Source: Actinostola sp. cb2023 (lineage: Eukaryota > Cnidaria > Anthozoa > Actiniaria > Actinostolidae). From it: a stretch of DNA of 64,000 nucleotides. Position 1 is the stretch's first letter. Each line of letters opens with the position of its first letter. The DNA lies in the NCBI GenBank assembly GCA_033675265.1, contig JAUJYZ010000453.1:1-64000 (forward strand), in the 5' to 3' direction. Below, piece by piece: positions 3,999 to 42,475 of the stretch. Both the position numbers and the translations under genes were made by a program. A model generated the notes under the pieces. It saw only the letters and a program-made list of their open reading frames with translations. It made no database searches and was not told the origin of the DNA.

Positions 3999-4376
3999 GG
4001 TTTGTACTCCGTGCTACATACTGGAATTCCTACTTTTGAAATACGTCTTTGAAGGTAAACTCGAAGGAGGTTTTCCTGCCTAGTTGCAAAGACAAGTACG
4101 TATAGAGCCCGAGAGTACCCCCAACAAAATCGTGTATGACAATATATCCCAAGGGTACCTGGGTGAAGTGGGGCGTCCCAAAGGTGAAGTGAAATGTCCT
4201 TACACTTTTGAAAATCGCAGCTTGAAAACGAGCCTTACGAGACGCCTGCGGAGGAGGCTACAAATATGTCAACTTGTGTCAATTTATCATAAAGTTTAAC
4301 AATGACAAATTGTGTACATTGTTGTACTACTATCCTGATATTTGAAATTTGCTGTGGTACTTTGCAGTTTTGAATT

Positions 4377-4835
4377 TCACGTGCTTACACAATTATCATG
4401 TAAATATTCATGCAAGGTCATCGAAGCAATGATCCTTGAAACAGGCCAAACAAATGCGTTTTCCACACATTTCACATCCCATTCGGCCAAAGGTTTTGTC
4501 CTTTTCTTTAAGCAGCACTTGCATCGTCCTCTGGACGTTGAAACTGGCCAGTGCCCTTCTTGAATTTTTGCCTCTGTGATAGTGTGCTTTCTTGAAGAGA
4601 AGTCTCCAAACAGTCGTTGAACAAGATCTAATCTGAAGCCTAACTGCTCTGTATTACGATGGTTTGTGGAAAATGGTTTGCAGTATATGAGCATTAACAA
4701 TGGAGACATCCACAAAGAACTACAGTAAATATCGCTCCATATCTGGGCACGACTAGCAATACAATAGTAACCACAAAGCTGGTCACTGAGATCGACCCCT
4801 CCCATGTTCTTGTTGTAAAGTTTTACAACAGGATT
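4377..4835 (-). pseudogene. piggyBac-like transposase, C-terminal part (left copy)
   Basis: The frame carries the piggyBac signature MGGVDLSDQL about 10 codons in, then the conserved Arg/Ile/Tyr-rich tail of the catalytic domain, and then the start of the cysteine-rich domain (CKCC). piggyBac transposases cut and paste DNA at TTAA. Only about 140 residues remain of a family usually near 550-600. After CKCCLKK the left copy loses one A in an A run (GAAAAGG here, GAAAAAGG in the right arm), so the remaining zinc-binding cysteines fall out of frame. Upstream sequence resembles the preceding family segment but contains stops. Confidence 0.8.
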
Positions 4836-5276
4836 ACTTCAATGATACTACGATCTTTCTGTCTCCTGTTCACTGTTTCACCACCTGAAGACCAGCCTGT
4901 TCTGTCAAGGATTTCTTAACAATGATGAATAGACTTTATTTATCGAGGGTAGCACGTGACAGTTTGTGTAAACTGATGACCCTGTGGTCCTCCAATAATA
5001 AATAATAAAATAATAAAACTTTATTAACATCTTTTTATATGATAGGTATTATGATACGTAACCTGTTTGCAAAGTTTCATTGTCCTACCTTAAAGTCGAG
5101 AAATAATTATCGGGAAGTAATGATAAATCACTGACATACTTCACACGTTCACCTTTAAGTACTGTAGGTCACAATCTTTATGAAATCTGTTTATTAGTTC
5201 CTGTAGCTCTTATTCTTAAAATACCCACCTCCATCACTTGTGCTCTATATTCTTTGTGTAGAGCAGACACACCACA

Positions 5277-5684
5277 TTAGAAAAATCCTTGGCACGGAGA
5301 CTGTTGACAGACTGTAACACGATGACCTCGATAATGGCAATTGCTACATGTAAACGCTATATTGTTCCAGCTGCTTCCCTGTACCTGGGGTTTTCTTTCA
5401 GGGATGACAAAAGTCACCATTGGAACACTTAGTCTGTATTCTAAGGCATTCCTTTGATCTTGAAGATTGTGCAGAAGATTTTCCACTGCATGTTCACTAT
5501 TCGAATCATTGTGCACTGGATTCACTGGAGGGTTCTTGGTCACAAAGAACGGCTCAATAATTTTTACCTTTACTTTGTCTCTGTCCCTTGTGTCGGTAAT
5601 ATCGACATCAACATATTCTTCCGAATCGGAATCGAATCGCTGAAGGGACACCCTTGTCATTGGCCCTGTCAACCGAAACCGCAA
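5277..5684 (-). pseudogene. CCHC zinc-knuckle protein fragment (left copy)
   Basis: An open frame of 135 codons with an acidic N-terminal half (FDSDSEEYVDVDITD) and a C-terminal zinc-knuckle-like cluster CSNCHYRGHRVTVC (C-x2-C-x4-H-x4-C), followed by two more cysteines. It stops right after CQGFF. The sequence past the stop (CGVSALHKEYR) still looks like the same protein, so the stop probably replaced a Tyr codon. The family is not identified; similar cysteine clusters occur in uncharacterised, often transposon-borne, invertebrate proteins. The N-terminus is uncertain. Confidence 0.45.
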
Positions 5685-5751
5685 ATACTTTTTCTACCAG
5701 TTTTTTTTGTTTACTCAGCATAGTGAAATCGATAGTTGTCACCTTTCTAAC

Positions 5752-5752
<1 letters not shown>

Positions 5753-5800
<48 letters not shown>
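5753..5800 (-). repeat. (TTGA)n retroposon 3' tail (left copy)
   Basis: Twelve TCAA units lie next to TGGTCTTTATTAT. Read on the minus strand this is AATAAAGACCA followed by a tetranucleotide array, the usual 3' end of a non-LTR or SINE retroposon. The body would extend to about 5801-5960 but was not identified. Confidence 0.6.
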
Positions 5801-5801
<1 letters not shown>

Positions 5802-7317
5802 GGTCTTTATTATAATAAGATAAAATTACATATCTTATTTAACACAGCAAATATCAAAAGAAGCAAAACAAAAAGCGAAATACAAATTTAAATATAATAA
5901 ATAATACAATTGATTCGTCTCGGCAATACAGGCTGGCCGATTATATTCTAATAAAATCGTAATAAAATGAAGTAAGTTTTATATAAGTTAAATAGAAAAT
6001 ATATTGTTCTCACAAACGTGACATGAATGGCGAGCAAAACAACACAATTCCTTTCTAAACAATATAGATTTTCATCCATATTTAAAACCGTAAAGACACA
6101 TAAACTGTGATAAAAAGAGGTTATTTTAGTTTCAAACAGCTTACTTTTCCAACAAGGCTGTCTGCTTTCTGCCATCTTGTTTGCACGTGCCAATTACGTA
6201 AACTTCATACTGGTCTTCATGTGGAGCTTGTCTATATAAGGAGGACCAGTTTGTTGAATAATCCAATCAGAATTCGAGTAGTGAATTTATTCTGTTTTGA
6301 ACACTGAAATCTTTGTTTTGTAAATGGAAGCCCGAAGCGAATAATCAACTCAATTTCCCAATATTGAAATCATTATCTTTATCCTTGGCATGATAAGAAG
6401 ATCACCTAGGCCCCATCATGTTTAATTTGTCATTACAATCGAGATTTGCCGCTCATTGCTGGATTTTTGTTACATTTGTAATAAATACCTAATCTCTACA
6501 TATGGGTGTAAACTAAATTCTTAAGGTTAAATCCTTATAAGCTTACCATTCTTCTGTCCTTTGGCAGACGTTTCCACATTTTCCCCACAGGGCCAAGTTC
6601 GTCAATAAAATCTTCCTGTCAAATTATGTGATTAACATAATTGTATTTAAAAAACTTAATTTAAAAAACACATTTGCCACATACTATTTCACTCTGTCAC
6701 GTGCAACCGAAGTCGAATGGTTAAAGGTCAGTGATCGCAAGCAGTCGGTCAGTATAACAATACACAACAGTTTTTTAAAATCGTTTTACTCTCTGCATCA
6801 ACGAACAAAAGTGAACAATGGATTCAAATGTAAAGAAAGAAAGAAAACAAAATTTAGTGCTACAAAAATGTTTGAACCATATTTTTACAAGTTTAGTTAT
6901 TGTCAAATCAGGTAGGTTTCCTGGTGCTGCCCTTTCGGATTGAAGTAGTGCTGCCTTCTGGGAAGAACCCGCTGTCTTGCTCTCCTGGTAGGAGAGGAAA
7001 CGACAAACTCTCTATTTGTTTTTGATTTTTGTGGCTACTCCTCTTCTTAGAAGAGAGTAGCCACTATGTCATCGAGTGTGAAAGTCCGTCCGTAAGTAAG
7101 TAAGTAACCCTAATCTTCGGATAGTGTTCGGAACTAGTCAGGTGATCGAAAATCAGCCACGATGTCGCGACGATGTACCCGATGGTTTATTCGTCTGGTT
7201 GTCGACATTTTATCGATTCGGATACATTCTTCTCGTGGTTGTCGACATTTTATCGATTCGATAGCGTTCAAAATACGTCGTGTTGGATTTCCATGTGCTT
7301 TTCGCTGCACGGCTTTG
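5801..7317. other. No gene seen; short direct repeat at 7195-7262
   Basis: Mostly AT-rich sequence. GGTTGTCGACATTTTATCGA occurs twice in direct orientation (about 7198 and 7236) inside a 76-codon frame that looks fortuitous. A GTAAGTAAGTAAGTAA tract lies at about 7092. No domain was recognised in any frame. Confidence 0.4.
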
Positions 7318-7975
7318 TTTAGAAGGGTAAGTTTACACTCTCTACTATTCTATTTTGCACCAGAAACCGGACAAATCTCTCGTGCAAAGTGACAAGTGTT
7401 TGATCATAAAGATATTTTCAAGTTTTTCAGTGACGGTTTGTTGAGATTATTTTCCAGCGGAAATTATATCGATTTGTGTTTGTGTTTGTTCGGCCTTTAA
7501 AATAGCTCCATCAGTCCATGACGATCGACTCTTGTCTGTGTAGTGGCTCCATGTAAACTACCAGATCTATAACCGATTTAAAGGGTCAAGTAATTCTCTT
7601 CGAGGAACAAATAATGTCTTTATTTAATGTTTATATGCGAGACACAAACAAACACGGCTCTCGTTTCTCTTTCAGTCTTTGTCCCAAAACTCGCTGAAAG
7701 CCGTTGTAATCGCTAAATAAATGACACGCAGGAGTGAAGTGCATATTCATCTTTATTTTGAAAGCAGTTTTAGAAATGCAAGATATCAAAAGGACAGGAT
7801 TCATTTCTAGAAGTGAATTTACGGCCATATACTGCCGATCGATCAAATAAGACACAGGAAGCCCAATACACAAACAGAGGGTGGTGATCTTTACACACGA
7901 GAGATGTGTCTAGTTTCTGGTGCAAAATAGCATAAAATCATAGTATATTAGAGTGTAAACTTATCTTCAAATTAG
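7318..7975. mobile_element. Inverted-repeat element, ~80-bp arms (left copy)
   Basis: AAGTTTACACTCT, TATTTTGCACCAGAAAC and ATCTCTCGTG in 7326-7385 return in reverse complement in 7890-7970. The arms are about 80 bp and imperfect, around a core of about 480 bp with no transposase. This fits a MITE or fold-back element; target duplications were not found. Confidence 0.5.
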
Positions 7976-9006
7976 ATATTCTATTTATTATACTTAAAGT
8001 TTTCATATATTTAGGTGAAGTCAAATAAATAAATAAACACCACTTCAGTTTAATTTTTTTTGGAGAAGCATAATATCGCAAAACTCAAAGAAAGGAAATG
8101 ATTTACTGAGCGACGTTTCGGAGTCATCATGACGCCATTATCAATTCATTGTTAAATTAATGTTAATATTCAATTACTAATGATATATCAATGCTGTTCA
8201 TATCGATTGTTTAATAACAACTGTTATTGTTCAATTATTTGTACGCTGTCACAATTGTTTTCAATTAAACTTTGTATTTTAATTTCTGATTCAGTAAATT
8301 AGCATTATATAGAACCAAAGAACAAGTTCCAGCAGATAGTTCAAACATACTACATGTAGTTCAACAGAGGAATCAATCCAACTACACATTGATTCTATAT
8401 ATTTCAAAACCGCAGTACCTACATGTAGTTATAGACTACCTGTTTTGTTTTTTTTTATAGTAGCCACATGCAGTCCTTGACTGCCTATTTTTTTGAGTTT
8501 GTTGCTGTCCCAGAGGAGCTTTTTTTTACTAGCAATATTTCTGTAACTATGTCTTTTTTATCCACTTTCCACGCTTCATCATATTGAGTGCTGCTTTCCT
8601 CTTGCTAAGTTTCATATTGTAATGTAAGCAATTTACTTGGAATGAGTATGTACATGAGAAAATGAATAACAGAAAACCCACTTACACAAATGGACAATTA
8701 CAATATTTTATAAAGAATTAATTTGAAAACAAGAGAAATGATATCATTTTTCTTAAAAGTCCTTAATTTGAAGTAATCTCGTGTCTTTCAAAGTTTGTTA
8801 TAATTTATTTGAGATTATGAAAGTATTGCCGCACAAAGCTAGAAATCGATTGTATCATTAGTAAGTAAGTTAAAACTGCGAAGGTGCTAAGCTCCAACTA
8901 GAGGAAGGGAGTTACATTAAAGAAACTGCGGAACAAAATCTAACGAGTATTTTTCTTAATTAGCTTTTAGGATAATGTATTGTTCCTCTCATATAATGCA
9001 TTGATC
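7976..9006. other. AT-rich interval with one PLE-like motif
   Basis: No coding region. At 8112-8132 the minus strand reads CATGATGACTCCGAAACGTC. This resembles the TGATGA...GAAACGTC signature near Penelope-like element ends, where degenerate hammerhead ribozymes are known. There is no stable stem II here and C3 of the core is changed, so it is at most a relic. The right-arm copy is at 38352-38372. Confidence 0.35.
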
Positions 9007-9125
9007 GATACAGAATACTTATAGAGCTTATTAGTATTCTGTATCTGATACAGAATACTAATAAGGTCTATTAGTATTCTGTATCAGATACAGAATACTA
9101 ATAAGCTTTATTACTATTCTGTATC
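9007..9125. repeat. Three tandem hairpins, 40-bp period (left copy)
   Basis: GATACAGAATACTAATAAG followed by its near-exact complement ending TATTCTGTATC repeats at 9007, 9047 and 9087. Each unit is itself a palindrome, and small differences sit at the hairpin tips. Confidence 0.85.
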
Positions 9126-9520
9126 ATAATTATGAACAATTGCAGTAATTAATCAATCCCACATATTCCCTGCCAACTATTCAAGCCCTCCCCGTGCTTT
9201 ACGTTTCTTGGGAATTGTATGGGAGTTACAAGGTAGCCACGTGACCAGAATGCTGAGCACAGATTGGACAGCTGCCTAATGAATTAATGAATATTATAAT
9301 TTATTATGTTTTCCAAAGGTAATTAGTTGATATAACACGGTACATTGTGCTCAGTTTCTTCAGAATCAACTATAAATCGGTTAAAAAATAGAAGTATATT
9401 TATAAATTTTAGCCAGTTCTAGTACCTTAAGCCCAAGAGTGACGACCTGCCATACTCATTGCCAGTTTTACTTCTGACCTTGGCGTAACCTCCAGAGACA
9501 GTAGTGGGGCAATATGGTGC

Positions 9521-10000
9521 AAAAAAATGGTTGAATTGTGCGATTTTGGTTAAAAGCACCAAACTTGCCACAATTGTAGTATTCGACGAGCTGAATAATT
9601 TCAGCTATGGACTCAACCGGAATTTGGTCAGGGGGGCCTATTTAAGACCAGAGGGGGGAGGGGTGGGTACAATATTGTCAAATGGTTGTTCGTTTTCGGT
9701 TAAAAACACCAAACTTGGCAAAGTTATAGTATTCGATGAGCTGAATGATTTCAGCTATGGGCCCACCCGGAAATTGGTCAGGGGGGGGGGGGGGGGGGAC
9801 TATTTTTAGATCAGAGTGGGGGAGGGGTGGGTACAATATTGTGGAATGAAGTTGTTCGTTTCAGTTTGGTTAAAAGCACCAAACTTGGCACAATTATAGC
9901 ATTCGATGTGCTGAATAATCTCAGCTATGTGCCCACCTGGAAATTGGTCAGGGATGGCGTTTTTTCTACACTGGAGGGGGTAGGGTTGGGTACGTACATT
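9521..10000. repeat. Three ~150-170-bp tandem units with G runs (left copy)
   Basis: GGTTAAAAGCACCAAACTTG recurs at about 9548, 9698 and 9868. Each copy is followed by AGTATTCGATGAGCTGAAT, a TTGGTCAGGG stretch and a G-rich end. The second unit contains an uninterrupted run of 18 G (9781-9798). The 101-codon and 63-codon frames across it repeat the motif KSTKLxTIxxFD and reflect the array. Confidence 0.75.
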
Positions 10001-10237
10001 TTTGGAAAAAATATATAAAAGTTAAAAACATGTTCAAAACAAGATATATGGCAATGCTATGGTTTGACATATCTCTTGCTTCTACAAGTATACAAATCCT
10101 CAAAATATCCAGGGTGTATTGATTTCCTTTCCTCTAGGGGGTGGAGGGGTATTGTTTGTTTTCTGGCCGGATTGTCATATTGAAGCAATAACTTTGCAAA
10201 AAATATACCATTGAACTAAAAAAGGTAAAGGTTATAC

Positions 10238-10519
10238 CTAATTGCGCTCACATTCCCCACCACATTTGCATGGCGCAGTACTTGGTATCTGATCTTTGGC
10301 ACACTTGCAACATCCCATGCAGCCTTTATCTGGTCTACATCCGCATCTCAAAAGTTCTTGGCAAACCTTTGACGCTTCAGGTAGTGTTGTCCATACCAGT
10401 AGCCATGAGCATGATTGTGCCGTTTTCATCCATCCCCATTCACCAGGAGAATGCAACTTGGGAAGACAATTCAAACACTGATCCCAGCAATGTGCAGCAT
10501 GATATGTTACTCTCTTCAC
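10238..10519 (-). pseudogene. C-terminal fragment of an uncharacterised invertebrate Cys-rich family (left copy)
   Basis: Ninety-three codons with the order YHAAHCWDQ, then GWMKT, then TLPEASKVCQELLRCGC, then a Cys-rich end (GCMGCCKCAK ... CKCGGEC). From memory, this order matches the C-terminus of an uncharacterised family widespread in invertebrate genomes whose central part has a HAFTGCD motif. The matching central part lies 250 bp away on the opposite strand (10765-10926), so the gene is broken and rearranged. Function is unknown; the Cys cluster suggests metal binding. Confidence 0.5.
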
Positions 10520-10764
10520 ATGCTGAAGTAAAAGGCTACTCTCTTTGTACGCTGACGTAAGGCATCTCTTGTCCGAGCAAACCGCAGTGTCTGAATCAGC
10601 ATGAAGCGAAAATCCTTATATCAACTGGAGATAATGACGTTCAAAGTTCATGGTTTTAAATGCTTCAGAACTGTGGAGTGGGCAAGCACTGTCCTAACAT
10701 TCCTGTACATAACATCGTCAAAGCTCTTGGTGATGACTAGAAGTCAATCATCTTCCACATCTTC

Positions 10765-10926
10765 CATGCATTCACAGGGTGCGATCAGGCAACAGCATTA
10801 AATGAACGTGGCATTAACGGTACCGCTTTGACAGTGTGGATTTCATATGAAGAAGCTACTATTACATCTTTGAGGCAGAACCCTTCCGAAGAGGATGCCG
10901 GTCCAGGATGCTATGCCATCACTTGA
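10765..10926 (+). pseudogene. HAFTGCD-motif central fragment of the same family (left copy)
   Basis: The frame opens directly with HAFTGCDQATALNERG and continues GTALTVWISYEEAT until a TGA at 10924. In the family this segment precedes the Cys-rich end on the same strand; here it is on the opposite strand. There is no start codon and no intact upstream part. Confidence 0.4.
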
Positions 10927-11861
10927 GCGATTTGTCGTGATATAATGTGCAAGTGCATGTGATCAGTGTCAATGTGAAAAAGGTATCAGGGGAGACAGGA
11001 GCGCCTGCAACGGACTACTGTTTAGGCGATATCCACCTCCCTTAATGCACACGTTGTTAGGGTCCTCATGCAACGCTTCCCCAAGAACGTCTGCGTAGAA
11101 CGCTATCAATTGTGTATGATTGAACAAGAGCTCTTACGAGAGGTTGACTGTAAAATTCGAAGAAAATGAAAGAAAGACGGAAAATGAGGATTAGCTGATT
11201 TCAATCACGTTTTGGTCATAGTTTGTGTTAGAGGTCTAAATTAAATCCACGGCATTAGTTTCTTAAAATATCATAATGCCGGCAATCTACAGGCCATGCA
11301 AATTTGGTGTATTGAGGAGTCCTGGGGCGAGAAGTGAAAATAGGAAATTTAGGGTATGTTTCAAGGGTCGTTACTCGTACGCAATAAGGATATTAGAACA
11401 AAAAACACATTTGGTATTATATTTGATCTATTTCTAATAAATCTAGCACAATTTTCTTCAAAACGTTAAATTTTCGAAGAATCTACAGCTCTATTTTGAG
11501 AAAGGGTTTTTGTCTAAGAGAAAAATATGAAAATATTGTATTTGAAGAGTAAGTTTTGGCGAAACGTCTGATCATCCAGCGGACTTGATTCTTAGTATTT
11601 ATAGAGTTCGAAGTATAAGAAAGCTTGTGAAATCAAGTTTTTCCTGGGTAATTTCATAGAAAGTTTGAAAAATCCAGTCAAATTCTCTGAAAATCACACA
11701 CACACAAAAAATATTGTTTTTGCATTTTATTCTGGAAATAAAGGAAATTTGACATTTGAGCAAATAATACCAATACAAACAAGACAGTTGTGATGCTTGG
11801 TTTATTATTTAGGAGGATCAAGGAGATTGAACATTATTGTTTTTGAAGAAATTGTGTGTCA
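10927..11861. other. No gene seen
   Basis: Sequence without long frames. GAGAGGTTGACTGTAAAATT at about 11142 resembles GAGAGGTTGACTGTAAACTT on the minus strand near 15460, which points to a dispersed repeat end. Confidence 0.4.
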
Positions 11862-13055
11862 CAATTAGTCACTTTGGAAAACGAGTAAAGGACTGGGAAC
11901 GAGTTTTTTAGAATTAATCTAATTAAGAAATGTTTCGATAGGTTCAGTTAGATATTGAACGAATAACAGCTTTCCAAACATCTCGAAATTTACCGCAAAG
12001 AAGTGTATGTGTCCCCTGTAACCATAGCCTCGACTAAAGCCCCGGTCAAACGTAAACGCAAGTCGCTGCAAGTTCATGCAAGTTTTGACTTGCGTAGACG
12101 TTTGATCTCTATTAAACTTGCAGGGACTTGCATCGACGCTATACGGGGACGTGCCGCTGGAGAGGGTATGATTTTTGGCCTCTCTGTCCTGAACAGGGTA
12201 GAACAGGGTATATGATTTTATGTGAGTCTGTCCTAAACAGGGTATGGTAATGCACGATTGTCGTCGTTAAATATGGTTTTATCCGGTATTTAGCCATATA
12301 TCTGAGATCCGAGATTTGCCTGTCTTTAGCAGGTCATCAGTCAATGAAAACGCGTTAGAATTGTGTGTATTTTGTCCTTCGTCCTAAACAGGGTCCTAAA
12401 ATAGAGGGTACGTGTACATGTTGTCCTAGACAGGGTATGTATTTTAGATTATTTTTGTCCCAAACAGGGTCAGGTTTTCAAACCCTCAGCGGCACCCCTA
12501 TACCCAAACATGGGAGGTTTCTTGGTGTTGCAGAACACCAGATGACGTTAGACAATGAACACAAAGAACGAGAAGAATGAACTTGAACCAAAACAATACC
12601 CTGCATACAAAGAAACCTAACCAAAAATACAATGCAGACTGTAGCACCAAGAAACACCCCAAGCATGGGTCAAGTACCTCCCCCCCCCCCCTTTTCACCG
12701 TCTGACCGGCAAACGCGAACGCATGCGCAATGCGCAAGTCACTGAAAGTGTCTTCGCAATTCAGCCGAACGAATAAACCACAGTTAGCTGGAGTAAAGAA
12801 ACATATGAACTTAATTGCATCAACTTGCGTTCACCGTTTGACCGGCTACTGGAGGAGGCTGCTCTAACCATACATTTCTTTGCAGTTTTTGAATGTCTGC
12901 AGTTCATTTACTACTTGTCCAAACCCTATCAAACTCCTGAAACTTACCAATTCTGATATGCTCTTTCTTGTGATGGGCCGTTCATTTTTCAATTATATTA
13001 ATTTTAAAAACTCGTTCCCAGTCCTTTACTCATTTCCAAAATGGCTAATTGGGTA
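11862..13055. repeat. Inverted repeat around a MITE, ~70-bp arms (left copy)
   Basis: GAGTAAAGGACTGGGAACGA in 11862-11935 returns in reverse complement in 12980-13055 as TCGTTCCCAGTCCTTTACTC, with imperfect matches on both sides. The inner arm abuts the 25-bp minisatellite. Confidence 0.7.
12042..12845. mobile_element. Non-autonomous TIR element, 804 bp (left copy)
   Basis: The ends are inverted: CCGGTCAAACGTAAACGCAA at 12042 against the complement of TTGCGTTCACCGTTTGACCGG at 12845, with one small gap. A further GTCTGACCGG copy lies at about 12702. The interior has a motif near GTCCTAAACAGGGTA about six times (12188-12475) and an imperfect inverted pair around GGTTTCTTGGTGTTGCAG. There is no transposase and no clear target duplication. 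Confidence 0.6.
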
Positions 13056-13056
13056 C

Positions 13057-13925
13057 CTTTAGCGGTCGGGATATAGCGTACCTTTTGCGGTCGGGATATA
13101 GGGTACCTTTTGCGGTCGGGATATAGCGTACCTTTTGCGGTCGGGATATAGGGTCCCTTTTGCGGTTGGGATATAGCGTACCGTTTGCGGTCGGGATATA
13201 GGGTACCTTTTGCGGTCGCGATATAGCGTACCGTTTGCGGTCGGGATATAGGGTACCTTTTGCGGTCGGGATATAGGTACCTACTGCGGTCGGGATATAG
13301 GGTACCTTTTGCGGTCGGGATATAGGGTACCTTTTGCGGTCGGGGTATAGCGTACCTTTTGCGGTCGGGATATAAGGTACCTTTTGCGGTCGGGATATAG
13401 GGTACCTTTTGCGGTCGGGATATAGGGTACCTTTTACGGTCGGGGTATAGCGTACCTTTTGCGGTCGGGATATAAGGTACCTTTTGCGGTTAGGATATAG
13501 GGTCCCTTTTGCGGTCGGGATATAGGGTCCCTTTTGCGGTCGGGATATAGCGTACCTTTTGCCGTCGGGATATAGGGTACCTTTTGCGGTCGGGATATAG
13601 GGTACCTTTTGCGGTCGGGGTATAGCGTACCTTTTGCGGTCGGGATATAAGGTACCTTTTGCGGTCGGGATATAGGGTCCCTTTTGCGGTTGGGATATAG
13701 GGTCCCTTTTGCAGTCGGGATATAGGGTACCTTTTGCGGTCGGGATATAGGGTACCTTTTGCGATCGGGATATAGGGTACCTTTTGCGGTCGGGATATAG
13801 GGTACCTTTTGCGGTCGGGATATAGGGTACCTTTTGCAGTCGGGATATAGGGTACCTTTTGCGGTCGGGATATAGGGTACCTTTTGCGGTCTGGATATAG
13901 GGTACCTTTTGCGGTCGGGATATAT
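13057..13925. repeat. 25-bp minisatellite, about 35 copies (left copy)
   Basis: The unit starts GGTACCTTTTGCGGTCGG and is completed by GATATAG. Copies are well conserved, with point variants such as GGTCCC, GCGTACC and CAGTCGG. Because 25 is not divisible by three, 75 nt cycle through all frames, and the minus strand has no stop in any of them. That gives overlapping frames of 320, 179 and 168 codons with the same shifted peptide repeat (e.g. YIPTAKGTLYPDRKRYP). I regard these as repeat products and not genes. Confidence 0.9.
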
Positions 13926-14164
13926 AATTGACGCGCCCAATTACACCGCTGTTTGTGTCGGTCCGACCTTTGTGTCGGAAAGCGATCAACACAAAGAGCT
14001 GCTGCAAAGGAGGCTACCAGCGTTATCATTGTTGCGACTTACAGTTTTACCAAATAAAACAGCGTCAGAAAGAACGTTAACATTTCTAGGATAGGGTATG
14101 GAAAATCGCAATTTTAGGTCTGGGAGAGGGTCGGGGGTCCGTCGTACACCTCTATCCGAATACG

Positions 14165-14260
14165 CCCTTAGTACCACCCAGGCATCATCGTCATCATCAT
14201 TAAACACCATGACCATCATCATGAACATCATCACCATCAACAACAAGAACAGCGGCAAGA
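14165..14260. repeat. Imperfect (CAT)n tract (left copy)
   Basis: CATCATCGTCATCATCATTA and further CATCAT/CACCAT triplets form a low-complexity stretch. Confidence 0.6.
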
Positions 14261-19477: not shown

Positions 19478-19566
19478 CCGCGCTGCCATGTAATATCCTC
19501 TATATAACGATTTAATTTGGTCAGTCCCTTGGCACATCGTTATATCAAGGTTCCACTGTAGTGGTG
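19478..19566 (-). mobile_element. pogo/Tigger-like terminal sequence (left copy)
   Basis: On the minus strand CAGTGGAACCTTGATATAAC is followed by several TATAACGAT/ATCGTTATA motifs, typical of pogo-type ends. A related sequence in the same orientation (CCTGATATAACGATTTTTCG) lies at about 18565-18640, so the two are not a matched pair. No transposase is nearby. Confidence 0.45.
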
Positions 19567-30353: not shown

Positions 30354-32570
30354 TTTCTATTCAGAGCATTGCACGCTACACACGAATCCTAAACTATTGC
30401 GTCATGTTCTATGAGTGTGTTTTATTACTTAACTATCTATATGAACATATATTGCTGTAAAATAATTATATATAATTTTTGTGTAATTGTGTAATTGTTA
30501 TGATAGTACTAATAAAAAATTACTAAAAAACAAGTAGTGAGTGGGGGAAGACTCTAACAATCTGATAAGTCAGTAACTTGGGGTCCTAGGCCAGTGTCAG
30601 CCCTCTCATCTCAACCCCATCAAGACCGTGTCTACGATTTTTGATACGTTGCCTCGTTTAAAAGTTATTTGATGATTTATGTGTAAATTGCTTAAAAACA
30701 CATTAAAGAACTTTGACAACAAATATCTCCTCAACAAATATATTTTAGAACAAAGTGTGCTCATTACAATGGCACTTTCCTTTTAGAAATCGATTGAATT
30801 CCCGCGTGCACGCTACTCTTTGAACAAGGCCGGTCAAATTTTCTAAAATGTGTAATAACAAAACATATTTACAAAATAGGAAATAATCTCCAGCATATTT
30901 AGAATCTGCATTTATTCAGCTTTAAGAAAATGTATACTTTTATACATGTTGGACGAGTGGCTAGCGAGCTACGTGGCTTTCAGTGAACAGTGGTCACGAA
31001 GGTCCCCTGGTACCTTAATATGGTTGTAAGAGAGGTTGACTGTAAACTTCGAAGATTGAGCGGAAAATGGGGGTCTTCCAAACTTAACCACCTTTTTGCC
31101 ATAGATAAAGTATTGATAGCAGACAACAGCTGTGGGGTTTGGTTTTTGCCTCACCCCTCAAGGTATGGTAAAAACGGGATTGGTATTTCCTATAGAGAGA
31201 GGGCCTGGGACGAGAGTAAAATAATTGCGAATTTATACATTTTGTTAAGCAAGCCACAGCTGATTAAAATGAATTTTTAAAAAAGTTTTACATCGTTTCG
31301 GAATATCTACATAAGGGCTTCTAATTTGTGGGATCTTTGTTAGTTGTCTGTTTTATATCGCTGACAAAAACGTTTGGCAAATATAGTATTTTTGTATAAA
31401 TCATTGAAGCTGATTTTAGTGTCTGAAGTTAAACCGATTTTAGGAATGTCTGACCAACTAGACTGACTGAATTAGTGTCCATTCACAAGAAGGGGTATCT
31501 ACCTTTCACATGGACTGACATTTTTGAAGGGTAAATGTACTCGTTTTGTTATTCACGTGAAGCAACTTTAGTTAATTATGCAAATTTGAGGAGAATAACA
31601 AGTAACAAGCAAGAGCTGGCGCACCTCACTAATTGATACATTTGAATAACTTTATTCGTCTAGTTGTTGTTTCTGATTCGCAATAATAGTTACTACTAAA
31701 AGGAAAACTAACTTCAGATATTATCGTACTGGAAAACTAAAAACTTGATACGAAAGTTTTCGCTATTCCAGATCATCCCCGGCAAAATGTTAGTTTAAAA
31801 AATGTATACTTTAACAACTGAAATGCTTCAAGTTACTGATGATATATCGCACAATTAAATGATCAAAGTGAACTACTATGATACAAGCAGTTTTACAGCT
31901 TATTAGTTGCCTGCCGGCGGCGGAATAAAAGCCCGAATAAAAGTTGCAATCTACAAGTCAGAGTCAGACATACATTGTGTGCGTTTGTTTGTTATGTCGA
32001 AACGGAGCTAGCGTGAGCGATGTTAATCGGCCATTATAAAGGATTCCGAATCTTTATATATTGGCATGTGGTGTTCTTTTCAAGATTTGAGTGGCTCAGA
32101 ATGTGGAGACGTATCAGAAAGTGTAAATCTACCTCATCATGTAGTGCCTCTGGGGTCGTGTACCAGTCTACCAGAGATATAACGAGACATCTCAGTACTA
32201 TTTGTGCCAAGCATCGCTACAGTCTTGGTGGTGTTCTTGCCGCTGTTCTTGTTGTTGATGGTGATGATGTTCATGATGATGGTCATGGTGTTTAATGATG
32301 ATGACGATGATGCCTGGGTGGTACTAAGGGCGTATTCGGATAGAGGTGTACGACGGACCCCCGACCCTCTCCCAGACCTAAAATTGCGATTTTCCATACC
32401 CTATCCTAGAAATGTTAACGTTCTTTCTGACGCTGTTTTATTTGGTAAAACTGTAAGTCGCAACAATGATAACGCTGGTAGCCTCCTTTGCAGCAGCTCT
32501 TTGTGTTGATCGCTTTCCGACACAAAGGTCGGACCGACACAAACAGCGGTGTAATTGGGCGCGTCAATTA

Positions 32571-33440
32571 TATATCCCGACCGCAAAAGGTACCCTATAT
32601 CCAGACCGCAAAAGGTACCCTATATCCCGACCGCAAAAGGTACCCTATATCCCGACTGCAAAAGGTACCCTATATCCCGACCGCAAAAGGTACCCTATAT
32701 CCCGACCGCAAAAGGTACCCTATATCCCGATCGCAAAAGGTACCCTATATCCCGACCGCAAAAGGTACCCTATATCCCGACTGCAAAAGGGACCCTATAT
32801 CCCAACCGCAAAAGGGACCCTATATCCCGACCGCAAAAGGTACCTTATATCCCGACCGCAAAAGGTACGCTATACCCCGACCGCAAAAGGTACCCTATAT
32901 CCCGACCGCAAAAGGTACCCTATATCCCGACGGCAAAAGGTACGCTATATCCCGACCGCAAAAGGGACCCTATATCCCGACCGCAAAAGGGACCCTATAT
33001 CCTAACCGCAAAAGGTACCTTATATCCCGACCGCAAAAGGTACGCTATACCCCGACCGTAAAAGGTACCCTATATCCCGACCGCAAAAGGTACCCTATAT
33101 CCCGACCGCAAAAGGTACCTTATATCCCGACCGCAAAAGGTACGCTATACCCCGACCGCAAAAGGTACCCTATATCCCGACCGCAAAAGGTACCCTATAT
33201 CCCGACCGCAGTAGGTACCTATATCCCGACCGCAAAAGGTACCCTATATCCCGACCGCAAACGGTACGCTATATCGCGACCGCAAAAGGTACCCTATATC
33301 CCGACCGCAAACGGTACGCTATATCCCAACCGCAAAAGGGACCCTATATCCCGACCGCAAAAGGTACGCTATATCCCGACCGCAAAAGGTACCCTATATC
33401 CCGACCGCAAAAGGTACGCTATATCCCGACCGCTAAAGGT
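32571..33440. repeat. 25-bp minisatellite, about 35 copies (right copy)
   Basis: Mirror of 13057-13925. The stop-free strand is now the plus strand, and the three overlapping frames have exactly the same lengths (320, 179, 168 codons) as in the left arm. Confidence 0.9.
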
Positions 33441-33650
33441 ACCCAATTAGCCATTTTGGAAATGAGTAAAGGACTGGGAACGAGTTTTTAAAATTAATAT
33501 AATTGAAAAATGAACGGCCCATCACAAGAAAGAGCATATCAGAATTGGTAAGTTTCAGGAGTTTGATAGGGTTTGGACAAGTAGTAAATGAACTGCAGAC
33601 ATTCAAAAAACTGCAAAGAAATGTATGGTTAGAGCAGCCTCCTCCAGTAG

Positions 33651-34454
33651 CCGGTCAAACGGTGAACGCAAGTTGATGCAATTAAGTTCATATGTTTCTT
33701 TACTCCAGCTAACTGTGGTTTATTCGTTCGGCTGAATTGCGAAGACACTTTCAGTGACTTGCGCATTGCGCATGCGTTCGCGTTTGCCGGTCAGACGGTG
33801 AAAAGGGGGGGGGGGGAGGTACTTGACCCATGCTTGGGGTGTTTCTTGGTGCTACAGTCTGCATTGTATTTTTGGTTAGGTTTCTTTGTATGCAGGGTAT
33901 TGTTTTGGTTCAAGTTCATTCTTCTCGTTCTTTGTGTTCATTGTCTAACGTCATCTGGTGTTCTGCAACACCAAGAAACCTCCCATGTTTGGGTATAGGG
34001 GTGCCGCTGAGGGTTTGAAAACCTGACCCTGTTTGGGACAAAAATAATCTAAAATACATACCCTGTCTAGGACAACATGTACACGTACCCTCTATTTTAG
34101 GACCCTGTTTAGGACGAAGGACAAAATACACACAATTCTAACGCGTTTTCATTGACTGATGACCTGCTAAAGACAGGCAAATCTCGGATCTCAGATATAT
34201 GGCTAAATACCGGATAAAACCATATTTAACGACGACAATCGTGCATTACCATACCCTGTTTAGGACAGACTCACATAAAATCATATACCCTGTTCTACCC
34301 TGTTCAGGACAGAGAGGCCAAAAATCATACCCTCTCCAGCGGCACGTCCCCGTATAGCGTCGATGCAAGTCCCTGCAAGTTTAATAGAGATCAAACGTCT
34401 ACGCAAGTCAAAACTTGCATGAACTTGCAGCGACTTGCGTTTACGTTTGACCGG
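33651..34454. mobile_element. Non-autonomous CCGGTCAAACG-ended element (right copy)
   Basis: Mirror of 12042-12845. Confidence 0.6.
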
Positions 34455-35565
34455 GGCTTTAGTCGAGGCTATGGTTACAGGGGACACATACACTTCTTTG
34501 CGGTAAATTTCGAGATGTTTGGAAAGCTGTTATTCGTTCAATATCTAACTGAACCTATCGAAACATTTCTTAATTAGATTAATTCTAAAAACTCGTTCCC
34601 AGTCCTTTACTCGTTTCCAAAGTGACTAATTGTGACACACAATTTCTTCAAAAACAATAATGTTCAATCTCCTTGATCCTCCTAAATAATAAACCAAGCA
34701 TCACAACTGTCTTGTTGTATTGGTATTATTTGCTCAAATGTCAAATTTCCTTTATTTCCAGAATAAAATGCAAAAACAATATTTTTTGTGTGTGTGTGAT
34801 TTTCAGAGAATTTGACTGGATTTTTCAAACTTTCTATGAAATTACCCAGGAAAAACTTGATTTCACAAGCTTTCTTATACTTCGAACTCTATAAATACTA
34901 AGAATCAAGTCCGCTGGATGATCAGACGTTTCGCCAAAACTTACTCTTCAAATACAATATTTTCATATTTTTTCTTAGACAAAAACCCTTTCTCAAAATA
35001 GAGCTGTAGATTCTTCGAAAATTTAACGTTTTGAAGAAAATTGTGCTAGATTTATTAGAAATAGATCAAATATAATACCAAATGTGTTTTTTGTTCTAAT
35101 ATCCTTATTGCGTACGAGTAACGACCCTTGAAACATACCCTAAATTTCCTATTTTCACTTCTCGCCCCAGGACTCCTCAATACACCAAATTTGCATGGCC
35201 TGTAGATTGCCGGCATTATGATATTTTAAGAAACTAATGCCGTGGATTTAATTTAGACCTCTAACACAAACTATGACCAAAACGTGATTGAAATCAGCTA
35301 ATCCTCATTTTCCGTCTTTCTTTCATTTTCTTCGAATTTTACAGTCAACCTCTCGTAAGAGCTCTTGTTCAATCATACACAATTGATAGCGTTCTACGCA
35401 GACGTTCTTGGGGAAGCGTTGCATGAGGACCCTAACAACGTGTGCATTAAGGGAGGTGGATATCGCCTAAACAGTAGTCCGTTGCAGGCGCTCCTGTCTC
35501 CCCTGATACCTTTTTCACATTGACACTGATCACATGCACTTGCACATTATATCACGACAAATCGC

Positions 35566-35727
35566 TCAAGTGATGGCATAGCATCCTGGACCGGCATCCT
35601 CTTCGGAAGGGTTCTGCCTCAAAGATGTAATAGTAGCTTCTTCATATGAAATCCACACTGTCAAAGCGGTACCGTTAATGCCACGTTCATTTAATGCTGT
35701 TGCCTGATCGCACCCTGTGAATGCATG
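35566..35727 (-). pseudogene. HAFTGCD-motif fragment (right copy)
   Basis: Mirror of 10765-10926; same frame and same stop. Confidence 0.4.
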
Positions 35728-35972
35728 GAAGATGTGGAAGATGATTGACTTCTAGTCATCACCAAGAGCTTTGACGATGTTATGTACAGGAATGTTAGGA
35801 CAGTGCTTGCCCACTCCACAGTTCTGAAGCATTTAAAACCATGAACTTTGAACGTCATTATCTCCAGTTGATATAAGGATTTTCGCTTCATGCTGATTCA
35901 GACACTGCGGTTTGCTCGGACAAGAGATGCCTTACGTCAGCGTACAAAGAGAGTAGCCTTTTACTTCAGCAT

Positions 35973-36254
35973 GTGAAGAGAGTAACATATCATGCTGCAC
36001 ATTGCTGGGATCAGTGTTTGAATTGTCTTCCCAAGTTGCATTCTCCTGGTGAATGGGGATGGATGAAAACGGCACAATCATGCTCATGGCTACTGGTATG
36101 GACAACACTACCTGAAGCGTCAAAGGTTTGCCAAGAACTTTTGAGATGCGGATGTAGACCAGATAAAGGCTGCATGGGATGTTGCAAGTGTGCCAAAGAT
36201 CAGATACCAAGTACTGCGCCATGCAAATGTGGTGGGGAATGTGAGCGCAATTAG
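35973..36254 (+). pseudogene. Cys-rich C-terminal fragment (right copy)
   Basis: Mirror of 10238-10519, identical in translation. It lies 246 bp from the HAFTGCD fragment, on the opposite strand. Confidence 0.5.
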
Positions 36255-36489
36255 GTATAACCTTTACCTTTTTTAGTTCAATGGTATATTTTTGCAAAGT
36301 TATTGCTTCAATATGACAATCCGGCCAGAAAACAAACAATACCCCTCCACCCCCTAGAGGAAAGGAAATCAATACACCCTGGATATTTTGAGGATTTGTA
36401 TACTTGTAGAAGCAAGAGATATGTCAAACCATAGCATTGCCATATATCTTGTTTTGAACATGTTTTTAACTTTTATATATTTTTTCCAA

Positions 36490-36985
36490 AAATGTACGTA
36501 CCCAACCCTACCCCCTCCAGTGTAGAAAAACGCCATCCCTGACCAATTTCCAGGTGGGCACATAGCTGAGATTATTCAGCACATCGAATGCTATAATTGT
36601 GCCAAGTTTGGTGCTTTTAACCAAACTGAAACGAACAACTTCATTCCACAATATTGTACCCACCCCTCCCCCACTCTGATCTAAAAATAGTCCCCCCCCC
36701 CCCCCCCCCTGACCAATTTCCGGGTGGGCCCATAGCTGAAATCATTCAGCTCATCGAATACTATAACTTTGCCAAGTTTGGTGTTTTTAACCGAAAACGA
36801 ACAACCATTTGACAATATTGTACCCACCCCTCCCCCCTCTGGTCTTAAATAGGCCCCCTGACCAAATTCCGGTTGAGTCCATAGCTGAAATTATTCAGCT
36901 CGTCGAATACTACAATTGTGGCAAGTTTGGTGCTTTTAACCAAAATCGCACAATTCAACCATTTTTTTGCACCATATTGCCCCAC
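36490..36985. repeat. Three ~150-170-bp tandem units with C runs (right copy)
   Basis: Mirror of 9521-10000; the 18-C run is at 36692-36709, the same length as the left-arm G run. Confidence 0.75.
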
Positions 36986-37362
36986 TACTGTCTCTGGAGG
37001 TTACGCCAAGGTCAGAAGTAAAACTGGCAATGAGTATGGCAGGTCGTCACTCTTGGGCTTAAGGTACTAGAACTGGCTAAAATTTATAAATATACTTCTA
37101 TTTTTTAACCGATTTATAGTTGATTCTGAAGAAACTGAGCACAATGTACCGTGTTATATCAACTAATTACCTTTGGAAACATAATAAATTATAATATTCA
37201 TTAATTCATTAGGCAGCTGTCCAATCTGTGCTCAGCATTCTGGTCACGTGGCTACCTTGTAACTCCCATACAATTCCCAAGAAACGTAAAGCACGGGGAG
37301 GGCTTGAATAGTTGGCAGGGAATATGTGGGATTGATTAATTACTGCAATTGTTCATAATTAT

Positions 37363-37481
37363 GATACAGAATAGTAATAAAGCTTATTAGTATTCTGTAT
37401 CTGATACAGAATACTAATAGACCTTATTAGTATTCTGTATCAGATACAGAATACTAATAAGCTCTATAAGTATTCTGTATC
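37363..37481. repeat. Three tandem hairpins (right copy)
   Basis: Mirror of 9007-9125. Confidence 0.85.
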
Positions 37482-38507
37482 GATCAATGCATTATATGAG
37501 AGGAACAATACATTATCCTAAAAGCTAATTAAGAAAAATACTCGTTAGATTTTGTTCCGCAGTTTCTTTAATGTAACTCCCTTCCTCTAGTTGGAGCTTA
37601 GCACCTTCGCAGTTTTAACTTACTTACTAATGATACAATCGATTTCTAGCTTTGTGCGGCAATACTTTCATAATCTCAAATAAATTATAACAAACTTTGA
37701 AAGACACGAGATTACTTCAAATTAAGGACTTTTAAGAAAAATGATATCATTTCTCTTGTTTTCAAATTAATTCTTTATAAAATATTGTAATTGTCCATTT
37801 GTGTAAGTGGGTTTTCTGTTATTCATTTTCTCATGTACATACTCATTCCAAGTAAATTGCTTACATTACAATATGAAACTTAGCAAGAGGAAAGCAGCAC
37901 TCAATATGATGAAGCGTGGAAAGTGGATAAAAAAGACATAGTTACAGAAATATTGCTAGTAAAAAAAGCTCCTCTGGGACAGCAACAAACTCAAAAAAAT
38001 AGGCAGTCAAGGACTGCATGTGGCTACTATAAATAAACAAAAACAGGTAGTCTATAACTACATGTAGGTACTGCGGTTTTGAAATATAGAATCAATGTGT
38101 AGTTGGATTGATTCCTCTGTTGAACTACATGTAGTATGTTTGAACTATCTGCTGGAACTTGTTCTTTGGTTCTATATAATGCTAATTTACTGAATCAGAA
38201 ATTAAAATACAAAGTTTAATTGAAAACAATTGTGACAGCGTACAAATAATTGAACAATAACAGTTGTTATTAACAATCGATATGAACAGCATTGATATAT
38301 CATTAGTAATTGAATATTAACATTAATTTAACAATGAATTGATAATGGCGTCATGATGACTCCGAAACGTCGCTCAGTAAATCATTTCCTTTCTTTGAGT
38401 TTTGCGATATTATGCTTCTCCAAAAAAAATTAAACTGAAGTGGTGTTTATTTATTTATTTGACTTCACCTAAATATATGAAAACTTTAAGTATAATAAAT
38501 AGAATAT

Positions 38508-39165
38508 CTAATTTGAAGATAAGTTTACACTCTAATATACTATGATTTTATGCTATTTTGCACCAGAAACTAGACACATCTCTCGTGTGTAAAGATCACC
38601 ACCCTCTGTTTGTGTATTGGGCTTCCTGTGTCTTATTTGATCGATCGGCAGTATATGGCCGTAAAATTCACTTCTAGAAATGAATCCTGTCCTTTTGATA
38701 TCTTGCATTTCTAAAACTGCTTTCAAAATAAAGATGAATATGCACTTCACTCCTGCGTGTCATTTATTTAGCGATTACAACGGCTTTCAGCGAGTTTTGG
38801 GACAAAGACTGAAAGAGAAACGAGAGCCGTGTTTGTTTGTGTCTCGCATATAAACATTAAATAAAGACATTATTTGTTCCTCGAAGAGAATTACTTGACC
38901 CTTTAAATCGGTTATAGATCTGGTAGTTTACATGGAGCCACTACACAGACAAGAGTCGATCGTCATGGACTGATGGAGCTATTTTAAAGGCCGAACAAAC
39001 ACAAACACAATCGATATAATTTCCGCTGGAAAATAATCTCAACAAACCGTCACTGAAAAACTTGAAAATATCTTTATGATCAAACACTTGTCACTTTGCA
39101 CGAGAGATTTGTCCGGTTTCTGGTGCAAAATAGAATAGTAGAGAGTGTAAACTTACCCTTCTAAA
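38508..39165. mobile_element. Inverted-repeat element, ~80-bp arms (right copy)
   Basis: Mirror of 7318-7975. Confidence 0.5.
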
Positions 39166-40678
39166 CAAAGCCGTGCAGCGAAAAGCACATGGAAATCCAA
39201 CACGACGTATTTTGAACGCTATCGAATCGATAAAATGTCGACAACCACGAGAAGAATGTATCCGAATCGATAAAATGTCGACAACCAGACGAATAAACCA
39301 TCGGGTACATCGTCGCGACATCGTGGCTGATTTTCGATCACCTGACTAGTTCCGAACACTATCCGAAGATTAGGGTTACTTACTTACTTACGGACGGACT
39401 TTCACACTCGATGACATAGTGGCTACTCTCTTCTAAGAAGAGGAGTAGCCACAAAAATCAAAAACAAATAGAGAGTTTGTCGTTCCTCTCCTACCAGGAG
39501 AGCAAGACAGCGGGTTCTTCCCAGAAGGCAGCACTACTTCAATCCGAAAGGGCAGCACCAGGAAACCTACCTGATTTGACAATAACTAAACTTGTAAAAA
39601 TATGGTTCAAACATTTTTGTAGCACTAAATTTGTTTTCTTTCTTTCTTTACATTTGAATCCATTGTTCACTTTTGTTCGTTGATGCAGAGAGTAAAACGA
39701 TTTTAAAAAACTGTTGTGTATTGTTATACTGACCGACTGCTTGCGATCACTGACCTTTAACCATTCGACTTCGGTTGCACGTGACAGAGTGAAATAGTAT
39801 GTGGCAAATGTGTTTTTTAAATTAAGTTTTTTAAATACAATTATGTTAATCACATAATTTGACAGGAAGATTTTATTGACGAACTTGGCCCTGTGGGGAA
39901 AATGTGGAAACGTCTGCCAAAGGACAGAAGAATGGTAAGCTTATAAGGATTTAACCTTAAGAATTTAGTTTACACCCATATGTAGAGATTAGGTATTTAT
40001 TACAAATGTAACAAAAATCCAGCAATGAGCGGCAAATCTCGATTGTAATGACAAATTAAACATGATGGGGCCTAGGTGATCTTCTTATCATGCCAAGGAT
40101 AAAGATAATGATTTCAATATTGGGAAATTGAGTTGATTATTCGCTTCGGGCTTCCATTTACAAAACAAAGATTTCAGTGTTCAAAACAGAATAAATTCAC
40201 TACTCGAATTCTGATTGGATTATTCAACAACTGGTCCTCCTTATATAGACAAGCTCCACATGAAGACCAGTATGAAGTTTACGTAATTGGCACGTGCAAA
40301 CAAGATGGCAGAAAGCAGACAGCCTTGTTGGAAAAGTAAGCTGTTTGAAACTAAAATAACCTCTTTTTATCACAGTTTATGTGTCTTTACGGTTTTAAAT
40401 ATGGATGAAAATCTATATTGTTTAGAAAGGAATTGTGTTGTTTTGCTCGCCATTCATGTCACGTTTGTGAGAACAATATATTTTCTATTTAACTTATATA
40501 AAACTTACTTCATTTTATTACGATTTTATTAGAATATAATCGGCCAGCCTGTATTGCCGAGACGAATCAATTGTATTATTTATTATATTTAAATTTGTAT
40601 TTCGCTTTTTGTTTTGCTTCTTTTGATATTTGCTGTGTTAAATAAGATATGTAATTTTATCTTATTATAATAAAGACC

Positions 40679-40679
<1 letters not shown>

Positions 40680-40728
<49 letters not shown>
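40680..40728 (+). repeat. (TTGA)n retroposon 3' tail (right copy)
   Basis: AATAAAGACCAT precedes the TGAT array, as at a polyadenylated retroposon end. Mirror of 5753-5800. Confidence 0.6.
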
Positions 40729-40792
40729 GTTAGAAAGGTGACAACTATCGATTTCACTATGCTGAGTAAACAAAAACTGGTAGAAAAAGTAT

Positions 40793-41199
40793 TTGCGGTT
40801 TCGGTTGACAGGGCCAATGACAAGGGTGTCCCTTCAGCGATTCGATTCCGATTCGGAAGAATATGTTGATGTCGATATTACCGACACAAGGGACAGAGAC
40901 AAAGTAAAGGTAAAAATTATTGAGCCGTTCTTTGTGACCAAGAACCCTCCAGTGAATCCAGTGCACAATGATTCGAATAGTGAACATGCAGTGGAAAATC
41001 TTCTGCACAATCTTCAAGATCAAAGGAATGCCTTAGAATACAGACTAAGTGTTCCAATGGTGACTTTGTCATCCCTGAAAGAAAACCCCAGGTACAGGGA
41101 AGCAGCTGGAACAATATAGCGTTTACATGTAGCAATTGCCATTATCGAGGTCATCGTGTTACAGTCTGTCAACAGTCTCCGTGCCAAGGATTTTTCTAA
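40793..41199 (+). pseudogene. CCHC zinc-knuckle protein fragment (right copy)
   Basis: Same protein as 5277-5684, but one T is missing (GACTTTGTC here, GACTTTTGTC in the left copy). The frame therefore leaves the zinc knuckle after SVPMVT and stops at 41119. The knuckle itself is still encoded in the neighbouring frame up to the shared TAA at 41197-41199. Confidence 0.45.
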
Positions 41200-41439
41200 T
41201 GTGGTGTGTCTGCTCTACACAAAGAATATAGAGCACAAGTGATGGAGGTGGGTATTTTAAGAATAAGAGCTACAGGAACTAATAAACAGATTTCATAAAG
41301 ATTGTGACCTACAGTACTTAAAGGTGAACGTGTGAAGTATGTCAGTGATTTATCATTACTTCCGATAATTATTTCTCGACTTTAAGGTAGGACAATGAAA
41401 CTTTGCAAACAGGTTACGTATCATAATACCTATCATATA

Positions 41440-41480
41440 AAAAGATGTTAATAAAGTTTTATTATTTTATTATTTATTAT
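41440..41480 (+). repeat. (ATT)n retroposon-like tail (right copy)
   Basis: TTAATAAAGTTTTATTATTT followed by TATTATTTATTATT resembles a retroposon 3' end inserted just upstream of the piggyBac remnant. The left copy lies at about 4996-5036. Confidence 0.45.
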
Positions 41481-41639
41481 TGGAGGACCACAGGGTCATC
41501 AGTTTACACAAACTGTCACGTGCTACCCTCGATAAATAAATTCTATTCATCATTGTTAAGAAATCCTTGACAGAACAGGCTGGTCTTCAGGTGGTGAAAC
41601 AGTGAACAGGAGACAGAAAGATCGTAGTATCATTGAAGT

Positions 41640-42068
41640 AATCCTGTTGTAAAACTTTACAACAAGAACATGGGAGGGGTCGATCTCAGTGACCAGCTTT
41701 GTGGTTACTATTGTATTGCTAGTCGTGCCCAGATATGGAGCGATATTTACTGTAGTTCTTTGTGGATGTCTCCATTGTTAATGCTCATATACTGCAAACC
41801 ATTTTCCACAAACCATCGTAATACAGAGCAGTTAGGCTTCAGATTAGATCTTGTTCAACGACTGTTTGGAGACTTCTCTTCAAGAAAGCACACTATCACA
41901 GAGGCAAAAATTCAAGAAGGGCACTGGCCAGTTTCAACGTCCAGAGGACGATGCAAGTGCTGCTTAAAGAAAAAGGACAAAACCTTTGGCCGAATGGGAT
42001 GTGAAATGTGTGGAAAACGCATTTGTTTGGCCTGTTTCAAGGATCATTGCTTCGATGACCTTGCATGA
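41640..42068 (+). pseudogene. piggyBac-like transposase C-terminus with intact Cys-rich domain (right copy)
   Basis: NPVVKLYNKNMGGVDLSDQL opens the fragment. The tail of the DDE domain follows, and then a full zinc-binding C-terminal domain: CKCC, CEMCGKRICLACFKDHC and a terminal FDDLA. In piggyBac transposases this domain binds the element ends. A TGA three codons before NPVV and further shifts upstream separate it from the rest of the catalytic domain, so only about 140 residues survive. This copy is the better template; the left copy is frameshifted. Confidence 0.8.
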
Positions 42069-42475
42069 ATATTTACATGATAATTGTGTAAGCACGTGAA
42101 ATTCAAAACTGCAAAGTACCACAGCAAATTTCAAATATCAGGATAGTAGTACAACAATGTACACAATTTGTCATTGTTAAACTTTATGATAAATTGACAC
42201 AAGTTGACATATTTGTAGCCTCCTCCGCAGGCGTCTCGTAAGGCTCGTTTTTCAAGCTGCGATTTTCAAAGTGTAAGGACATTTCACTTCACCTTTGGGA
42301 CGCCCCACTTCACCCCAGGTACCCTTGGGATATATTGTCATACACGATTTTGTTGGGGGTACTCTCGGGCTCTATACGTACTTGTCTTTGCAACTAGGCA
42401 GGAAAACCTCCTTCGAGTTTACCTTCAAAGACGTATTTCAAAAGTAGAATTCCAGTATGTAGCACGGAGTACAAA

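Follow-up and report, generated by a model that had tools for sequence, protein, structure and literature searches.

A near-perfect 38.5-kb palindrome at a contig end of likely anthozoan origin, very probably a technical fold-back

The palindrome and its surroundings

The window analysed here, a stretch of DNA of 64,000 nucleotides, consists of a left tail (1-4000, with no strand assigned), a palindrome (4001-42475) and a right flank (42476-64000, + strand) that has no mirror at the left end of the window. An earlier note had described the middle part as a near-perfect palindrome of ~38.5 kb with arms of about 19.2 kb around a 26-bp spacer, and self-BLAST agreed with this description: the longest minus-strand alignment ran from 4001-42475 against 42475-4001 with 99.585% identity. 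Alignment of the two halves placed the left arm at 4001-23228 (+ strand; 19,228 bases), the spacer at 23229-23254 (+ strand; 26 bases) and the right arm, the reverse complement of the left, at 23255-42475 (- strand; 19,221 bases). The longest exact arm-to-arm match was 2,435 columns, and the remaining minus-strand rows among the best 60 by length were offsets inside a minisatellite. This minisatellite has a 25-bp unit and 35 copies in each arm (13051-13924 on the + strand, nearly indel-free, with its right-arm counterpart at 32571-33444 on the - strand). The equal copy number reported earlier was thus recovered, as was the 18-base homopolymer, a G18 run of the same length in both arms. That such a palindrome arose by chance is out of the question. 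MITEs were checked solely in the form of short inverted repeats, of which the left arm holds 24 pairs. A search for structural RNA and tRNA found none.

Of the 76 listed ORFs with at least 90 aa, 20 were scanned for protein families, including 11 that lie in the arms; the families above threshold in these arm ORFs were transposon-related. A piggyBac-like transposase end is present as a left copy (4377-4838, - strand) and a right copy (41637-42068, + strand), and a hAT-type transposase remnant (DUF4371, Dimer_Tnp_hAT) lies at 16143-17345 (- strand) in the left arm and at 29230-30353 (+ strand) in the right arm. The right flank encodes a DUF3987 protein (46375-48018, - strand), for which 7994 candidates were scored and at least 89 relatives were listed. 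The best match among those listed, from a JGI/ENA source, had 99% identity over 64% of the query, and the best named match among them was from Actinia tenebrosa, with 58%. The hAT arm protein had 12 relatives, the single named one being from Actinostola sp. (81% over 47% of the query). Every named relative among the listed matches of this one flank protein and one arm protein belongs to an anthozoan genus, in keeping with the earlier placement of the structure in an animal, and the protein matches point to a likely anthozoan host for both arm and flank.

Two branches had been offered for the origin of the structure, a recent inverted duplication and an assembly fold-back, with a missed adapter read as one form of the latter. 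When the spacer was compared on both strands with four sequencing adapters, it resembled none of them (local scores of 6-11; lowest shuffle fraction 0.086 of 500). A missed adapter read thus finds no counterpart among these four adapters and is still a possible reading, a badly miscalled adapter being conceivable. Beyond its mirror copy, the centre (22901-23260) gave only three matches elsewhere in the window, of 23-39 bases and with E up to 0.01. An exact probe with the 26 central bases gave 0 matches in viral_contigs and 0 in genome_contigs, collections of viral and prokaryote contigs from which the source genome may be absent.

Differences between the arms

The arm alignment held 58 runs of difference, made up of 51 indels and 7 substitutions. 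Homopolymers of 3 or more contain 41 of the indels, and two of the substitutions, at 4934 and 23013, lie clear of homopolymers and other indels. In one unequal run, A15 at 21322 in the left arm faces A11 in its counterpart, where a G is also inserted. A predominance of small homopolymer indels is typical of long-read consensus error and unlike the mutation of two copies, and we count this composition, with its two isolated substitutions, in favour of a fold-back. On the other side, a very young real palindrome also predicts few substitutions. Given the excess of homopolymer indels together with the reading frames of the hAT remnant described below, the true divergence between the arms is probably near zero. 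This disfavours a joining of two haplotypes, and on its own it cannot tell an artefact apart from a real duplication of very young age.

Protein relatives allowed the indels to be judged at the few sites that they cover. In tblastn with five related proteins of the 12 found for the hAT remnant, the left copy was read in a single frame over up to 17303-16824, and the right copy was broken at the counterparts of 17126, 17012-17017 and 16692, three sites at which the left copy is open. A frame change near 16824 is common to both arms and hence is no arm difference. The contrast between a left arm read in one frame and a right arm broken thrice argues for a fold-back and suggests that the right arm is at fault at these three sites, as consensus errors would give. 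Since the hAT gene was already a remnant, the right-arm indels could also be late mutations. At 16325, the right copy has one extra codon, and here too the right arm is presumably at fault, judging by a sequence motif. At 5409, the left copy keeps intact a cysteine-histidine pattern, which we take to be a zinc knuckle and which would again point to the right arm; in Pfam, the protein gave only a sub-threshold HNH match. The piggyBac remnant pointed the other way. Its left copy departs from the frame of the right copy after 4502 and seems to lose a C-terminal cysteine motif, which in the right copy aligns very weakly (0.9 bits) to the piggyBat transposase; motif and alignment are only suggestive of a fault in the left arm. 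Over the sites judged by protein relatives, frame breaks were more numerous in the right arm than in the left. A simple fold-back model expects the left arm to be the worse, and this point, for which we have no explanation, counts against the model.

The differences are also unevenly placed along the arm. The outermost 225 bases hold 4 of the 58 differences against 0.68 expected (P = 0.005, for a stretch picked post hoc), a surplus that speaks for a fold-back. The sign of the indels shifts along the arm, the left copy being longer at 23 of 29 outer sites and the right copy at 18 of 22 inner sites (Fisher P = 1.8e-5, with the 16-kb cut picked post hoc). This change of sign counts against a fold-back and is likewise without explanation.

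The left tail and the palindrome edge

The left tail is made of GT-rich, gap-rich repeats resembling a raw long read. An array with units of ~30 bp (481-1330, + strand) showed 6.7% substitutions, 9.0% insertions and 6.1% deletions against the chosen unit, that is, 721 matches, 55 substitutions, 74 insertions and 50 deletions, and 44 of the insertions lie beside an equal base. The same counting in the arm minisatellite (874 bases) gave 839 matches, 35 substitutions, 0 insertions and 1 deletion, and the contrast between an indel-rich tail array and a near-indel-free arm minisatellite argues for a fold-back. A second repeat region of the tail (1511-2218, + strand), rich in GATGAT/TGATATTGGTG, gave ~65% matches, with an indel share that varied with the period and reached 21%. 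A third (3221-4000, + strand) runs up to the palindrome edge with gapped self-matches of 65-80% identity, and Tandem Repeats Finder reported no array in it, relaxed settings included. Among the rows of that program, five overlapping ones for the tail array had 13-22% indels; the four other rows of the window above 200 bp, two of which are the mirrored minisatellite, had 0-4%.

Pairwise comparison of repeat copies gave 494 gap bases in 4165 columns for 481-1330, 209 in 1680 for 1451-2260 and 35 in 417 for 3101-4000. Outside the tail, the counts were 18 in 7541 for the arm minisatellite, 8 in 443 for an array of the flank and 8 in 161 for another arm array. The gap share was thus 12% of columns in 481-1330 and 1451-2260 and 0.2%, 1.8% and 5.0% in the three non-tail arrays. 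Because the gap counts of the tail exceed those of the arm and flank arrays, the tail looks like an unpolished raw read, clearly so in its first 2.3 kb and less so in its last kilobase. Gap bases per mismatch in 3101-4000 amounted to 0.39, a value bracketed by those of the other arrays (0.03, 0.35 and 0.53). That the raw look is weakest near the palindrome edge, both in this ratio and in gap columns (35/417 against 8/161), counts against a fold-back.

The gapped repeats of the tail extend to base 4000, and the very next base, 4001, opens the clean arm homology, an abutment that argues for a fold-back. A clean left flank next to the left arm was looked for in the window and not found. Reads belonging to the left arm itself should extend beyond its outer edge and leave the adjoining stretch of left flank polished as well; a clean part that ends exactly where the homology ends is what is expected if reads of the right-arm locus polished the left arm. 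In addition, 4000 equals 8 x 500, which is relevant on the assumption that base 1 of the window is the start of the contig. Racon-like polishing is described as working in non-overlapping 500-base windows (PMC11392814), and we count this agreement for a fold-back as well.

The possibility that the tail is a noisy mirror of the right flank was rejected. The reverse complement of 3501-4000 scored 25 against 42476-47500, five shuffles scored 20-24, and shuffles of eight 500-base tail pieces ranged over 20-30. As a positive control, noise was simulated on the mirrored flank at three error levels within 22-33%, with 10 trials per level, and the copies scored at least 312 in 30 of 30 trials. Two 500-base tail pieces scored 47 and 55 as reverse complements against the arm, with one shuffle each at 25 and 28, and they exceeded the shuffles because of a GAT/TGG-rich low-complexity match: the best match of the tail to the rest of the window (2146-2203, 74% over 62 columns, E = 4e-5) is to such a stretch at 14183-14244 and to its mirror at 32251-32312. 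None of the other 500-base pieces stood out against the entire right flank and the arm. A tail that is unlike the mirrored right flank is a point that we count for a fold-back. Since the tail is not the mirrored flank, the turn at the centre does not suffice, and position 4001 calls for a further join or for another sequence.

Origin of the palindrome

Taken on what can be read from the sequence, the palindrome is very probably a technical fold-back at a contig end, produced in sequencing or assembly, and not a real structure of the genome. In the most direct scheme, a molecule or read would have folded on itself, a strand and its complement having become linked during library preparation, amplification or read calling. 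The folded molecule would also have included an additional 4 kb of different sequence and would have served to extend the contig. Ordinary reads of a single real locus, namely arm plus right flank, would then have mapped to both arms and polished both, while the 4-kb tail, covered by no or almost no other read, would have stayed raw. The centre and the tail would in this scheme come from one or very few molecules; the placement of the contig start at base 1 of the window is likewise presumed, as is the stage that produced the fold-back. Of the two branches offered earlier, then, the fold-back is the one that we favour, with the raw-like tail abutting the end of homology, and the recent duplication is not. 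One weakness is that folding of a single molecule explains the arms and leaves the 4-kb sequence beyond the left arm to a second join.

Comparable artefacts have been documented, which adds to the case for a fold-back. In the nanopore genomic data surveyed with Breakinator, ~0.55-0.6% of reads are reported as fold-backs and ascribed to library preparation, and in many of them the turn contains hardly any sequence or none (PMC12870357). The palindrome resembles those reads in its near-equal halves on opposite strands and in a 26-base gap that lies inside the 200 bases allowed by that tool between the turn and the second half, a likeness that holds at the level of the contig; it differs in lying in a contig, not a read, and in the different 4-kb sequence beyond one arm. 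The same survey reports virtually no fold-back reads in its PacBio HiFi data (PMC12870357), which would count against our reading if the contig was built from such reads. Whole-genome amplification is reported to yield similar palindromes, and the cases treated with Pacasus are like ours in that artificial inverted repeats are joined in long molecules, where they can form chains, whereas our sample bears no sign of amplification (PMC6218980). In the nanopore inverted-duplicate reads described in PMC7229812, base calling deteriorates at the junction, and the second arm is the degraded part. Poor base calling close to a single-molecule palindrome is common to both systems; here, unlike there, the arms are clean and the noise lies outside them in another sequence.

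The alternative that survives best, although we consider it improbable, is a real and very recent inverted duplication formed by fold-back priming at a broken end or by template switching, with the 26 bases as its loop. The near-identity of the arms speaks for it, and so does the size of the loop. Break-induced inverted duplications of yeast, in the cases reported, begin at short inverted repeats; two of the three wild-type ones used a 5-bp repeat with 35 bp between its copies. They share with our palindrome a short central loop and near-identical arms (PMC10622511). Those duplications were characterized with Southern blots, qPCR and whole-genome sequencing; here, no clean left-side sequence was found, and the clean part ends at the edge of homology. 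Longer, more similar and closer inverted repeats are also described as carrying a higher risk to genome stability (PMC7999016). Spelled out in full, this alternative is an extremely young 38.5-kb anthozoan inverted duplication with a 26-base loop, primed by fold-back at a break, tolerated despite the instability expected of it and lying beside satellite DNA that could not be polished, and to this too we assign little probability.

Overlapping with the readings of a real palindrome, and unlikely to a slightly greater degree, is the view that the contig is correct in the tail, which would then be genuine satellite DNA that has diverged strongly. Real repeat units are present in the tail, and the balance of gaps and mismatches in its last kilobase is like that of other arrays. 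The view is harder to reconcile with gap shares in 481-1330 and 1451-2260 above those of the three other arrays, with insertions that so often fall beside an equal base, and with a change to clean sequence that coincides exactly with the palindrome edge. The earlier suggestion of a tail-to-tail joining of two haplotypes during assembly fared worse and is very unlikely. Such joins are common in assemblies of outbred animals, and the alleles of outbred marine invertebrates usually lie ~0.5-1% or more apart. At that level, many more substitutions would be expected than the at most 7 found in 19.2 kb, and the minisatellite copy number is identical as well. An old palindrome held identical by gene conversion, in the manner of sex chromosomes, is barely credible: the arm identity of 99.585% exceeds the 99% reported for mammalian palindromes (PMC8981503) and is the one positive point for this earlier proposal, against which stand the transposon-related families of the scanned arm ORFs, a spacer of 26 bases and a clean left flank that was not found.

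If the palindrome is the technical fold-back that we favour, the assembly counts the genes and transposon copies of 4001-23228 twice, frameshifts specific to one arm would be misread as pseudogenes, and the 4-kb tail would be filed as a false satellite. A clean arm that meets raw-like sequence at the end of homology also suggests a simple check for fold-back contig ends that needs no reads. If the structure is real, it would be a test case for the survival of a closely spaced giant palindrome in an animal.

Length differences between the palindrome arms

Comparison of the two arms of the near-perfect palindrome (4001-42475) showed that the sign of the indels between them, 51 in total, switches along the arm. 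When these sites were split at 16 kb, a cut chosen after looking, the copy in the left arm was the longer one at 23 of the 29 outer sites and the copy in the right arm at 18 of the 22 inner sites; uneven read assignment in polishing is perhaps the source of this switch.

Inverted repeats and an ORF with a sub-threshold QRICH1 match in the left arm

Within the left arm, 24 bases short of its inner end, lies a perfect inverted repeat of 11 bp whose loop spans 12 bases (23171-23204). This repeat could favor a hairpin close to the turn, the 26-base spacer between the arms; its loop does not coincide with that turn. Farther out, a 40-bp unit is present in three tandem copies (9007-9126), each unit being an inverted repeat in its own right, and an ORF at 18848-19141 (+) gave a sub-threshold match to the QRICH1 domain (20.1 bits versus a cut-off of 30.8).

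Repeats, transposon remnants and a DUF3987 protein in the right flank

In the flank to the right of the palindrome, an almost pure G stretch of 106 bases (57571-57676; longest run, 32) consists of two 54-bp copies that are 96% alike; either a genuine G-rich repeat or faulty base calling could account for the stretch. A 201-bp tandem array of 2.6 copies lies at 54228-54750 (93% matches, 1% indels). Transposon remnants are represented by DDE_Tnp_4 (51969-52673, -), by a sub-threshold reverse transcriptase match (44478-44762, +) and by an ISXO2-like (DDE_Tnp_IS1595) match, under the curated cut-off, in the third of three overlapping ORFs (50719-51514, +). The same flank holds an open frame for a DUF3987 protein of 547 aa (46375-48018, -); among the matches listed, one to a JGI/ENA-source protein covered 64% of this DUF3987 protein at 99% identity, and named relatives come from anthozoans.
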